A stretch of 64,000 nt of DNA. Origin: Natranaerofaba carboxydovora. GTDB lineage: Bacteria; Bacillota; Natranaerobiia; Natranaerobiales; Natranaerofabaceae. The stretch covers positions 2,550,501 through 2,614,500 of the forward strand of contig NZ_CP054394.1 of the NCBI RefSeq assembly GCF_022539405.1. Reading direction: 5' to 3'. Shown one piece after another: positions 34,609-42,327 of this stretch. Position 1 is the stretch's first letter. The number at the start of each line of letters is the position of its first letter. The position numbers were made by a program, and so were the translations under genes. Under the pieces are notes generated by a model. It did not search any database. It was not told the origin of the DNA and saw only the letters and a program-made list of their open reading frames with translations.

Positions 34609-34905
34609 GTATCCACTTCCCCCTTGAGTTAAGAATAAGAATCTATTTCTAAATTATTTTTCTTTTATTTCTAATATTTTCTTTCAACGAATTTTTAATC
34701 ATTTCCTGCTTGATTTGCTAGAATTTAAGTTCAAAAAAAAACAATTAGATATAATATAAGCTCCAAAATAACAGAAAAAATGTGCCAGAGCTAGCAACTG
34801 ATATTTAAGAAATATATATTTCTAGTTAAATATACTTATACCTATGTATTTTCTCTCTTTTTTGTGTTATACTAATATTAAGGCTTTAATAAAGGAGTTA
34901 GATGT
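34609..34905. other. Intergenic region containing the left side of the IS607-type element
   Basis: 297 AT-rich bases between the divergent DUF2520 gene and tnpA. It must contain the left end of the element, but IS607 elements have no terminal inverted repeats or target duplication, so the boundary cannot be placed from one copy. No other feature seen. Confidence 0.4.
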
Positions 34906-35520
34906 ATGAAAGTACCTATTAGCAGAGCATCTAAAGAGCTTGGTGTTAGTATAGATACATTAAGGCGCTGGGAGCGTGAAGGAAAATTTACTTCTGAACG
35001 TACTCCTGGCGGACATAGACGTTACGACTTAGATAAACTTCAAAAAATAGCAAATAAGGAAAGAGATGATGAAAAAATAACAATTATATATGCAAGAGTA
35101 TCTACTCCAAACAAAAAAGAGGACCTAAAATCTCAAATTGAGCGATTAGAAATGTTTTGTGCATCTAAAGGTTGGAGATACAAAGTTATTCAAGACATCG
35201 GATCAGGATTAAACTACAATAAAAAGGGTTTGCTTGAGTTGATAAAACTAATCGAAACTGATCAGATTGAACGTATAGTTGTAAATTATAAGGATAAATT
35301 ATTAAGGTTTGGGACTGAATTGCTATTCGAAATTTGCAAATATCACAATGTTGAGATTGTCATTTTAAACGAAGATGAAGAAAGAACTCACGAAGAAGAA
35401 CTTGTAGAAGATGTTTTGTCTATAATAACTGAGTTTTCTGCAAAACTGTACGGAAGCAGAAGTCATAAAAACAAAAAGGTGGTAAGTGAGGCAAAAAAAC
35501 TCTTTAAGGAGAGCGATTAA
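34906..35520 (+). CDS. tnpA: IS607-family serine transposase TnpA
   Basis: 204 residues. An N-terminal MerR-like helix-turn-helix (ISRASKELGVSIDTLRRWER, then PGGHRRYDLDKL) is followed by the serine resolvase domain with the nucleophilic Ser in YARVSTPNKKEDLKSQ and the conserved SGLNYNKKGL. This small domain order defines IS607 transposases, which excise and insert a circular intermediate. The frame looks intact. The tnpB remnant begins two bases downstream. GGAGTTAG precedes the ATG. Confidence 0.95.
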   Translation: MKVPISRASKELGVSIDTLRRWEREGKFTSERTPGGHRRYDLDKLQKIANKERDDEKITIIYARVSTPNKKEDLKSQIERLEMFCASKGWRYKVIQDIGSGLNYNKKGLLELIKLIETDQIERIVVNYKDKLLRFGTELLFEICKYHNVEIVILNEDEERTHEEELVEDVLSIITEFSAKLYGSRSHKNKKVVSEAKKLFKESD

Positions 35521-35521
35521 T

Positions 35522-35912
35522 ATGCAAGTTCCAAAATGTGTTAAACAGCATAGCTTTGAACTTGATCCAAAAGTTTTAGAAGAACTGGAGATAATATCCG
35601 ACCGTTATAACTCAGTTAAAAATTATATATATTCAAAATATAGTGGAATAAGAAGTTTACTTTTAATCCAAAATCCTCGTAAAAACATTCGTGATATTTG
35701 GATTAAAGAAAAATTCAAAGATTTGTAATAAGTGTGAAAGGTTCGGAGACAGAAAAGGTGATTTGTTTAAGTGTAAGTGTGGTGAATATTATGCTGATAT
35801 TAATGCAGCTATAAATATTAAAAAACGTAAATTTGATAGCGAAATTGGTTTATATACACCTTATAAGCAAGTTGAAAAGACTTTAGAAAAAAGAATAAAA
35901 GAAGTAGTGTGA
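35522..35912 (+). pseudogene. tnpB: Internally deleted tnpB (IS607 accessory nuclease) remnant
   Basis: Two pieces in different frames. 35522-35728 encodes a TnpB-like N terminus (MQVPKCVKQHSFELDPKVL) and stops. 35691-35912 encodes the extreme C terminus: a zinc ribbon (CNKC ... CKCG) followed by the third RuvC motif ADINAAINI. Roughly two thirds of a normal TnpB, including RuvC I and II, is missing. The nuclease must be inactive. The element can move only through TnpA if its ends are intact. Confidence 0.85.
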
Positions 35913-36180
35913 CCGTCAAGTAGTTTAAAACATTCTCCTTATCACAAGTGTAGCTACCCCTTTTTAGGGAGGTTGCGCTTCACCGCAAGGCGGGGGTAAG
36001 GAAGATGTAGAAATACTCTTAAACGGTTGGGGGAAGTATCCTTATTTAGGTTCTATCTAAGGAGGGGGACACTGGTTCAACCTAGGCTTCGTGTCCTATG
36101 CGGTACAGAAGTGTGAAATGCTCTAAAATCTATGTAGAACATATATTTGAGTAGTTTTACATATGTTTTAGGGACCAGGC
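35913..36180 (+). ncRNA. Structured 3' end of the IS607 element, candidate omega-RNA remnant
   Basis: About 270 bases, much richer in G than its surroundings and without an ORF. Local hairpins are visible: CCGC-AAG-GCGG near 35980, TTAG/CTAA near 36050, and GGACAC/GTGTCC around 36068-36094 enclosing GGTTCAACC. TnpB guide RNAs are encoded over the tnpB 3' end and the element's right end, which is this position. The assignment is from location and structure, not from a covariance model. Confidence 0.5.
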
Positions 36181-36181
36181 C

Positions 36182-36210
36182 TTGACTAATATATTGTGTT
36201 TTTTTACAAT
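36182..36210 (+). promoter_or_regulatory. Sigma-A-type promoter of hsp20
   Basis: TTGACT (36182-36187), a 17-base spacer and TACAAT (36205-36210). The CIRCE element begins 15 bases after the -10, covering the expected start of transcription. Confidence 0.8.
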
Positions 36211-36224
36211 ATAATCGAGAGGAG

Positions 36225-36251
36225 TTAGCACTCTAGCATGAAGAGTGCTAA
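36225..36251 (+). promoter_or_regulatory. CIRCE operator (HrcA binding site)
   Basis: TTAGCACTC-N9-GAGTGCTAA, an exact match to the canonical 9-9-9 CIRCE, 48 bases before the hsp20 start codon. HrcA should repress this gene until heat shock occupies GroEL. Confidence 0.96.
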
Positions 36252-36299
36252 TTGGTGGGTCTATAAGACTGGTAATAATAAAATATGGAGGTGATTCCT

Positions 36300-36734
36300 A
36301 TGACAAGACTACCAAGAAGATGGGGAGAGCCTTTCGGAATGTTGGCTGACTTTGGCAGCTTGCTAGACAAGTTTGACACAGAGTTTGGACTCAAAAGTAA
36401 TTATGGCAGAACCGACATCTATGAAAAAGACGGAGAACTGCACTTTGAAATCGAACTGCCAGGTTTAGATAAAGAAAACCTAAATGCTAGGATTGAAGAA
36501 GATCGATTAATAGTAGAAGGCGAAATAACCAGGGACGATAAGATAGAAAAGGAAAACTACTTAAGAATGGAAAGAAGTCGCGGCGAATTCAAGAAAGCAT
36601 TCCCATTACCAAATGAAACAGACACTGATAGTATCGATAATCTAAAAGCCAAATTCCAGGATGGAATTTTAAAAATCTCTGTCCCGTTAAAGAAGTCTAT
36701 CAAGGGCGATTCTATTGACATCGAAATAGAGTAA
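36300..36734 (+). CDS. Small heat shock protein (Hsp20/alpha-crystallin family)
   Basis: 144 residues from ATG 36300, directly behind GGAGGTGATTCCT; an in-frame ATG at 36285 includes the ribosome binding site and is rejected. The alpha-crystallin domain spans about 40-135 (TDIYEKDGELHFEIELPGL, and the conserved FKKAFPLP and AKFQDGILKISVP). The C-terminal I-x-I type motif appears as IDIEIE. It is an ATP-independent holdase. A CIRCE element and a sigma-A promoter control it, so it belongs to the HrcA regulon. It lies just past the IS607 element. Confidence 0.96.
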   Translation: MTRLPRRWGEPFGMLADFGSLLDKFDTEFGLKSNYGRTDIYEKDGELHFEIELPGLDKENLNARIEEDRLIVEGEITRDDKIEKENYLRMERSRGEFKKAFPLPNETDTDSIDNLKAKFQDGILKISVPLKKSIKGDSIDIEIE

Positions 36735-40527: not shown

Positions 40528-42213
40528 TTAATCAATATATTCTTTTGACTTTTCATATATTTCCTCTTCAGTATGACAATCCTTGCAACTTGTTTCATCT
40601 TCTATGAAATTAGCACCTTCACCGTGGAATTCTTCATCTGTCAAATCATCATAATATACTTCCCCGGGAAGATAAACCGTTACTTCCAAAGGTTCTATAT
40701 CATCCCAATTCACCCTGTCTACTTCATCTGTAGTATCTATAGTCAAATCTTCTTCCACATTTGCTATTTCGAGGTCCGCTTCTACTTCTTCTCCTCCTAT
40801 CTCAAAAGGAAGGGACACGTGATGGAATATACCATCTTTTTCGATATCGTGAATCGAAAAGGCCATGTTATAGATTTCTTCTTCTAACAAGGCTTCAAAA
40901 TCTACATCATCTACTGGTTCTTCCTCATCTTCACCTTCATCGTTATTTTCTTCATTATTCTCCTCATCGTTTTCATCTTCATTCTCATCATCTTCTGCTT
41001 CTTTTTCTTCTGCTTCCTTTTCTTCTTGATCTTCCTCTTCTTCTTCCTTAGCTTCCTCCTCTTCTATCTCTTCAACCGGTGGGTCTTCTTCATCCTCATC
41101 TGCTTCAATATCCCGTATAAGAGTTACACTCCAGGTATTAGTATCAACATCAAACTCTCTAGTTGTTCTTACATCATGCTGGCTAGATTCAAAAACATAG
41201 CCGGTATTTGATGAAATAAGCGCCCCTTCTTCTAACTCTTCTACAATTTCATTTAACAGTTCTTTAGCTCCTTCAGGAGTAGTTATATTTAATCTTTTAC
41301 TCCAGTACTCTTCCCATTCTTCACCAATATCTGGGGAGAGTTCATCATTTGCCATCAAAACCAAAAACTTAACATCAATAGAGTTAACCCTATCCTGCTC
41401 TGGGTCAAACTCAAAGTCTTGATAAGCTACATTCAAGGTTTCATATTCCATGTCGTCTATGCTTTCTTTAAGTTCATCAGGATCGGTTATTAGATTACCT
41501 TCTTCATCGGAGTAAAAGAAGTTTTCAAATATCACTTCATCCGGGTCAAAAACAAATCTGGGTATTATCTTCCCTTCCCACTCTCCTGCCGACATAGGCT
41601 GGTCCTTGATTATCGAAGCTCCCTCTTCGCTGACCCATTCAGGCAGTTCTTCTTTTTCTTCATCGTCTATTATGTCCCTTTCTACACCGCTGACACCTTC
41701 ATCTGATTCTTCATACATTATCCATTTGTCCCTGGCATAATCCATCGAACCTATTTGTCCTCCAAAGTCCCACATATCAAGGGAAAATTCTCCTACCTCT
41801 TCTTCATCTTCAACTTCAACATAGTGATGCTCCATATCTTTGTGACAGGAAACATAACAGCCTGCCTCACCAAAACCTTCTATTTCATTTTCGGGGTCTT
41901 CAAACATTATAGAAACCCGATCTTCTACCACCTCATCTTCACCTTCTAATTTAGTCCACTCTTGTCCATCATACTTCATTATGTCACTAAACTGTGCCGG
42001 ATAGCCTTTTCTACTTTCCCACTCAAAATGAAAAGCGATCTCATCATCAGTATGAGCAGCCCTTACTTCAACCTCTATAGGTTCTTTTAAAGATTTTTCA
42101 TCAGCCTTTTCTTTGTCTTCTTCTTCAGGCGAGTCCGGTCCTATATCTATCAACTCACAAGCAGGCAGCAGTGCAGCTAACATCAAAAATACGAGAACTA
42201 TAATCTTTTTCAA
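40528..42213 (-). CDS. Acidic, haem-binding ethylbenzene-dehydrogenase-like lipoprotein
   Basis: 561 residues from TTG 42213 (AAGGAGG upstream; earlier in-frame codons lack a site). The signal peptide ends in the lipobox LLPAC19. The first domain (about 40-330) resembles the gamma-subunit-like EB_dh family (VRAAHTDDEIAFHFEWES) and carries C119-x3-C-H124, an unusual haem c-type spacing. A roughly 70-residue stretch consists almost only of Glu, Asp and Asn. The C terminus has a standard C543-x2-C-H547 haem c motif (CKDCH). It therefore looks like an extracytoplasmic electron-transfer protein of a halophile. No cytochrome c maturation genes are in the window. Terminal fragments of the dispersed repeat flank it. 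Confidence 0.75.
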   Translation of the reverse strand: MKKIIVLVFLMLAALLPACELIDIGPDSPEEEDKEKADEKSLKEPIEVEVRAAHTDDEIAFHFEWESRKGYPAQFSDIMKYDGQEWTKLEGEDEVVEDRVSIMFEDPENEIEGFGEAGCYVSCHKDMEHHYVEVEDEEEVGEFSLDMWDFGGQIGSMDYARDKWIMYEESDEGVSGVERDIIDDEEKEELPEWVSEEGASIIKDQPMSAGEWEGKIIPRFVFDPDEVIFENFFYSDEEGNLITDPDELKESIDDMEYETLNVAYQDFEFDPEQDRVNSIDVKFLVLMANDELSPDIGEEWEEYWSKRLNITTPEGAKELLNEIVEELEEGALISSNTGYVFESSQHDVRTTREFDVDTNTWSVTLIRDIEADEDEEDPPVEEIEEEEAKEEEEEDQEEKEAEEKEAEDDENEDENDEENNEENNDEGEDEEEPVDDVDFEALLEEEIYNMAFSIHDIEKDGIFHHVSLPFEIGGEEVEADLEIANVEEDLTIDTTDEVDRVNWDDIEPLEVTVYLPGEVYYDDLTDEEFHGEGANFIEDETSCKDCHTEEEIYEKSKEYID

Positions 42214-42260
42214 AGTTTTTCCTCCTTGTACAGCTTTTTGATTTTCGTTAGTTTTTGCAA

Positions 42261-42284
42261 ATAGACTTTTTGCACCAAAAACAA
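42261..42284. repeat. End fragment of the dispersed palindromic repeat (right of the haem lipoprotein gene)
   Basis: ATAGACTTTTTGCACCAAAA matches the right arm of the full copy, with the end slightly altered. Confidence 0.6.
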
Positions 42285-42295
42285 ACTTGAAACTT

Positions 42296-42327
42296 TCATA
42301 AAATAACTGTGTCATAAAATAACTGTT
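42296..42327. repeat. 16-bp tandem duplication next to the hisC promoter
   Basis: TCATAAAATAACTGTG and TCATAAAATAACTGTT (42296-42311, 42312-42327) differ at one base. The second unit overlaps the candidate -35 box of hisC. Confidence 0.7.

Follow-up and report, generated by a model that had tools for sequence, protein, structure and literature searches.

An apparently decaying IS607 element beside hsp20 in Natranaerofaba carboxydovora combines a broken TnpB gene with a complete omega-RNA scaffold

The window analysed here, a 64,000-nt stretch of the one-contig genome of Natranaerofaba carboxydovora (3,264,732 bases, listed as 100% complete), carries a single rightward IS607 copy at 34789–36178, between a leftward gene (start 34608) and hsp20, which encodes a small heat-shock protein (36285–36734, + strand; PF00011, 69.5 bits). 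The copy consists of an intact TnpA, a broken TnpB and a complete 258-nt right end. We are confident that it is a decaying insertion whose guide RNA, if made at all, is a partnerless passenger; going by sequence comparison, a loss of function in the window copy is the most likely account. These limits refine the original prediction, whose first position, 35522, is the start of tnpB; the scaffold itself occupies 35921–36178.

The transposase gene tnpA (34906–35520, + strand) is intact, as the original prediction held. Its 204-aa open frame scores 221.6 bits against the NCBIfam model transpos_IS607 (NF033518; cut-off 110) and has the IS607 domain order, a MerR-type HTH (PF00376) followed by a resolvase/serine recombinase domain (PF00239); its best solved relatives include the TnpA proteins of ISC1904 and ISC1926. 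No second TnpA copy occurs in the genome; apart from its own place, TnpA matches there only a resolvase domain (31% identity) within a 515-aa frame. When genome contigs were scanned for TnpA, two loci came up, L002 in a Syntrophomonadaceae MAG and L003 in a Clostridiales MAG, whose TnpA proteins are 92% and 67% identical to that of the window, respectively. L002 sits between genes read as gyrB and gyrA, and its TnpB is one open frame of 467 aa from its ATG. Similarity to this independent copy spans 34787 to 36178, so that the two elements have their ends in common; it defines the left end (34791–34905, + strand), with 101 of 119 aligned bases identical from 34787 to the tnpA start. Over the whole split between the window and L002, dN/dS of tnpA is 0.12.

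TnpB has lost most of its nuclease, also as predicted. The window and L002 align in two blocks, 930 bp at 91% identity and 466 bp at 88%, and the roughly 1,012 bp between those blocks are present only in L002, which places an internal deletion and a frameshift in the window tnpB, with the junction at about 35715. What survives is the first ~64–67 residues, read from 35522, and the last 65 (35715–35909), in different frames. The N-terminal remnant (35522–35728, + strand) is 85% identical to residues 1–67 of L002 TnpB and passes into a foreign frame after about residue 64–67; the C-terminal remnant (35715–35912, + strand), which includes the zinc ribbon and the last RuvC aspartate, is 84.6% identical to residues 403–467, and the open frame at 35691–35909 scores 27.1 bits against PF07282 (cut-off 26.3). 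The RuvC acidic residues of L002 TnpB, which we take to be those of GIDKGY, MEDL and ADIN, align in all four intact TnpBs compared; with residues ~65–402 lost, the first two are missing from the window, which therefore holds no TnpB with the full D-E-D set. The dN/dS of the tnpB remnants against L002 is 0.24 pooled (0.15 and 0.39), and amino-acid changes are in slight excess over tnpA (p 0.04, uncorrected, from two sequences), weak hints that the remnants may be under relaxed selection. Measured against the divergence from L002, the deletion is probably recent, as judged from these two sequences. At the tnpB stop, a 16-bp insert (35909–35924) lies between AAGTAGT repeats and is absent from L002; it reflects a slip in the lineage of either the window or L002.

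The third component, the G-rich, hairpin-forming stretch that the original prediction had placed at the guide-RNA position, is structurally complete on the evidence of the comparisons that follow. The prediction had called for a search for intact copies and had staked itself on right-end similarity to them, and L002 supplies it: 235 of 258 aligned bases of the scaffold (35921–36178, + strand, ending GACCAG) are identical. Because the intact L002 element matches on both sides of the deletion, we identify the structured 3′ end as the right end and omega-RNA (reRNA) scaffold, an assignment also drawn from alignment, covariation and a covariance model. The stretch contains 25.2% G, a value reached by 15 of 638 same-sized windows on the + strand. 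With 20 nt of flank included (35921–36198), its folding energy is −87.2 kcal/mol (z −3.28, matched by none of 200 shuffles), a weaker fold than that of L002 (z −6.81). When the L002 minimum-free-energy structure is mapped onto the window, 73 of its 93 pairs are unchanged, 11 are changed but kept and 9 are broken, 4 of these being among the 5 pairs made with the guide flank. Compared with L002, the scaffold has changed at 23 of 258 positions and tnpA at 30 of 122 synonymous sites (Fisher p 1e-4), which suggests that the scaffold was constrained for much of the time since the split; its rate is not clearly below that of the left end (23/258 versus 18/119, p 0.08).

Conservation with intact copies extends to both sequence and structure. 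We aligned 18 right ends with MAFFT (16 full loci and 2 partial; G350 and G368 were left out as too distant and unalignable by eye, and L053, L014 and L112 as short or rearranged). The conserved blocks run in the order ATCACAA, a hairpin, GGTTG, ACTGG, AAG.G.GAA and a terminal [G/A]ACCAG, and the window agrees with 49 of the 50 columns in which the 17 remaining rows do not vary, departing from them at the base at 36114. Over 25 pairs in 5 helices, 96.9% of 424 cells are paired versus 88.6% in shuffles, and 42 cells are double-changed versus 16.0 (0 of 500 shuffles as high for either count), a comparison that is favoured by the tested structure having been derived from the same alignment; slid controls reach at most 53.7% paired and 8 double-changed cells. 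Two measures do not stand out in this alignment: 9 pairs are changed on both sides versus 6.4 in shuffles, a count equalled or exceeded in 30 of 500, and there are 21 further pair types versus 21.6. Once the alignment is anchored by hand on ATCACAA and GGGT, a choice that leans towards finding a stem, every row (16 of 16) can form pairs 1–8 of the outer stem of the 5′ domain, and these pairs are unlike in three lineages; pair 9 is broken in the window and pair 10 fails in 11 of 16 rows. RNAalifold, run on the full MAFFT alignment, missed this stem because the alignment offsets the stem's 3′ strand by about 2 columns from one lineage to another. Rfam gave only two unrelated weak matches over the element at E up to 5, and none over the whole window at gathering thresholds.

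The boundaries of the element indicate what the RNA would read. In the 16 full loci and in L053, a further right-end copy in the L002 genome (98%), the terminal [G/A]ACCAG is followed by 20 nt of host DNA that differ from locus to locus, as expected of an omega-RNA whose guide is the flank. On the left, the window, like L002 and L003, has AGAG ahead of [N]TAGC, and GGAG precedes CAAC in 11 of the 11 IStron-like loci whose left end is visible. When the flanks of two related insertions within genes are joined, both (2 of 2) regain their reading frame only with a single AG retained, and we accordingly took AG as the crossover and the bases ending in AG as the TAM. AG is present at both ends of the window element; its inferred left crossover would be 34789–34790 (+ strand), and AGAG at 34787–34790 is the predicted TAM of the empty site. 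The predicted guide (36179–36198, + strand, by analogy with the host DNA after [G/A]ACCAG in the members listed) would begin at 36179, cover the −35 hexamer of hsp20 (36182–36187) and target the uninserted site. The inserted allele has CCAG rather than AGAG before the guide and so should not be recognised, leaving the uninserted site as the only expected target. No second guide target stands out from chance in the genome: the first 16 nt have 35 places within 3 mismatches versus 39 for a reversed control, and only the guide's own place has fewer than 2. The empty site of the insertion was not found in the hsp20 loci of relatives. An IS607 TnpB group with TAMs AGGAG or GAGGG has been described (PMC11061315).

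These features suggest the following sequence of events. In an intact element, TnpA would excise the element and insert it at a short crossover, here AG; TnpB would take up an RNA made from the right end, whose last 16–20 nt are adjoining host DNA, and would cut the chromosome copy that has lost the element, so that repair copies the element back. Cutting of the donor joint has been proposed as a role of TnpB (PMC8612924). In the window, an internal deletion has destroyed TnpB, and the scaffold, apparently complete, would carry a guide that reads the hsp20 promoter region. With no matching TnpB in the genome, such an RNA is most likely without partner and effect. Both the mobility of the element and production of the RNA may persist, given a nearly perfect scaffold and a tnpA that seems to be under selection.

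Among the other accounts of this locus, the one that fares best, though we consider it unlikely, is a regulatory change, in which the right end would have replaced the DNA upstream of the hsp20 −35 box and read-through would give heat-independent expression. The element and hsp20 share orientation and, as the original prediction had noted of the hsp20 promoter, the right end lies directly beside it: the element stops 3 nt before TTGACT, which is spaced 17 bp from TACAAT (36182–36210, + strand; the best promoter-like site by consensus match, at 10/12). Downstream lies an exact inverted repeat (36225–36251, + strand, 0 mismatches; 0.01 expected within 3 mismatches) that we take to be CIRCE, the operator of HrcA, and it is intact. 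Read-through from the element is possible on this arrangement: no terminator-like site occurs in 34620–36320, where only 0.2 were expected by chance. Against a regulatory change, promoter-like sites are no commoner than in shuffles (8 versus 7.8), and relatives' hsp20 loci offered no empty site for comparison. By eye, no shared upstream sequence shows at the hsp20 loci of G001 and G002, where two of the four matches were read, and a search for CIRCE in all six loci with 5 substitutions allowed gave two loose matches, at L127, inside the coding part, and at L130. Elsewhere in the window, 40528–42315 (− strand) encodes a 595-aa acidic protein with a lipoprotein-like start and, by eye, one CxxCH and one CxxxCH.

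Somewhat less probable still is that the structured stretch is kept only as the right end needed for TnpA transposition and not for an RNA. TnpA is intact, the ends are conserved and the final ~50 nt could pair into an AT-rich stem, in keeping with the AT-rich inverted repeats described at IS607 ends (PMC4227781). Conservation and covariation, however, span 258 nt, beyond what a crossover site presumably needs, and the scaffold is kept in 13 loci (L099–L111) with no match to the L003 TnpA at E 1e-4 in the fetched stretch (L106 being cut by its contig end).

The original prediction had also raised action of the RNA on an intact TnpB elsewhere, and this suggestion fared badly: we regard it as very improbable that another TnpB, such as one of five alike TnpBs in the genome, uses the retained RNA in trans and so guards or targets the hsp20 site. 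The genome does hold six other TnpB-like genes, and the scaffold is nearly perfect. But a TnpB needs its own kind of scaffold, and neither such a scaffold nor a fitting protein was found. The right-end DNA search gave no second scaffold in the one-contig genome, and a covariance model of the scaffold 3′ part scores the window at 96.1 bits (the window being in the model by construction) and the next place at 19.3 bits (E 1.5). With 22 of 22 candidates scored, the Pfam TNB domain turns up seven times in the genome, namely in the five alike TnpBs (frames of 246–386 aa, IS605-type by our reading), the window remnant and one further gene, L012. A search with L002 TnpB, in which 21 of 21 candidates were scored, places the five at 30% identity across ~150 residues; nothing better besides the window remnants was found in the whole genome, and L012 is unmatched at E up to 1. 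L002 and L003 TnpB score 57 and 56 bits against the TNB model, so an intact relative should have shown in that search. Around these six genes (L006–L010 and L012), nothing resembles the window scaffold (best 14.6 bits, E 0.64). The many protein contacts made to the scaffold in a described IS607 TnpB complex (PMC11061315) likewise count against use in trans, as does the CCAG before the guide in the inserted allele. The cognate TnpB is thus absent from the assembly and the scaffold is present in a single copy; a partner could be encoded on a plasmid that the assembly lacks. L012 itself (G000:C1:2464779-2467985) seems to be without the usual zinc-ribbon cysteines and has a structured-looking tail ending GAGTAGTTCAC, presumably as in IS605 elements.

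That the window scaffold is an orphan omega-RNA kept because it still acts, whether by serving an unrelated TnpB in trans or by forming an RNA leader at the hsp20 promoter under CIRCE control, has in our judgement hardly any chance of being right; if true, it would make a transposon guide RNA part of heat-shock control.

Decay, the reading that we prefer, fits the wider scaffold family, in which TnpB decay is common and the window is otherwise a case of ordinary decay. Leaving aside L106, the TnpB frame is open in 12 of the other 15 full-scaffold loci and broken in 3, the window, L104 and L111 (2 of 14 without the window). L111 (G859:C62:1-3000) has an internal TnpB deletion, of query residues ~130–311, beside a complete scaffold. 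In L104 (G867:C11, about 725,772-726,082), TnpB is interrupted by ~300 bp that look palindromic and, by eye, MITE-like, and its sister copy L105 has an open frame. Right ends with no TnpB in view occur at L112, at the contig ends L113, L114 and L053, and at the rearranged L014. A search of 101 genomes with the right-end DNA matched 2, the window's own genome and G001, a genome of the same order whose rearranged relic (L014, G001:C2:105356-105667) lacks adjoining tnpA and tnpB and has its 3′ half inverted relative to its 5′ half. Among relatives of the L002 genome, at least 10 of 296 genomes contain a match, all short except in the L002 genome and G500; among relatives of the L003 genome, at least 56 of 291 do, many of them short, and full-length TnpBs of the group near that genome are 50–53% identical to L003 TnpB. 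Both searches scored 2 candidates per genome, so the family given here is a lower bound. In G350, two TnpBs (L045 and L046) end at contig edges, each followed after its stop by a shared GC-rich tail of ~437 nt; the tails are 96% identical and may represent an oversized guide RNA.

Viral contigs held no relatives by L002 TnpB, L002 TnpA or the scaffold motif, and scaffold DNA matched neither plasmids nor phages. Element DNA as query matched 2 plasmid records, at 65–68% over the tnpA part. L002 TnpB protein matched 130 plasmid records, of which 16 span 80% of the query and the best listed reaches 30% identity, and 35 phage records, none of which spans 80%; identity was below 60% throughout.

The element shares with the IS607 family its TnpA family, gene order, right-end RNA and use of the host flank as guide, and differs in its deleted TnpB. 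IS607 itself is described as having a GG crossover (PMC4058570), whereas AG is inferred for the window. L002 TnpB scores 41.6 bits against NCBIfam IS607_TnpB, far below the cut-off of 350, and 93.8 bits against guided_TnpB, just below the cut-off of 100. The IStron-like relatives of the L003 genome have a conserved block of ~410 bp before tnpB, which by its motifs we take to be a group I intron; Rfam listed no intron in L105 or L100. Group B IStrons (PMC4227781) are a close comparison for these relatives, which have a scaffold of the window's family and a right end in ACCAG. By contrast, the window, L002 and L003 have only ~115 bp before tnpA, which leaves no room for the intron block (115 bp from left end to tnpA in the window), and a left flank of AGAG, not GGAG. 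ORF-less IStron copies and frequent loss of ORF A are on record in the same source, so partial elements are familiar (PMC4227781). The RAGATH-18 reRNA of IS607 TnpB (PMC11061315) resembles the window RNA in lying downstream of the coding region, in its AG-rich TAM and in the order of its length (a described scaffold of 187 nt, here 258 nt); TnpBs of that group average 390 aa according to the same source, versus 467 aa for L002. Rfam gave no RAGATH-18 match to the window element up to E 5, in a library that may lack a RAGATH-18 model.

TldR repressors are full-length TnpB-like proteins without nuclease activity. Like the predicted window guide, theirs are described as reading a promoter region (PMC13418256), but most of the window TnpB is gone, leaving no full-length, nuclease-dead protein. 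Among the titles and abstract openings of the open PMC matches listed, we found no report of an omega-RNA outlasting its TnpB. Studies of IStron guide RNAs, like the first TldR paper, reportedly date from 2024.

The window copy clearly illustrates the stage at which a TnpB element has lost its nuclease and not yet its guide RNA, with an intact relative for comparison. The scaffold family to which it belongs has no relevant Rfam match in the loci scanned, joins stand-alone IS607 elements with the IStron-like ones of Clostridiales relatives and presents a difference in TAM, AGAG versus GGAG, that can be tested.
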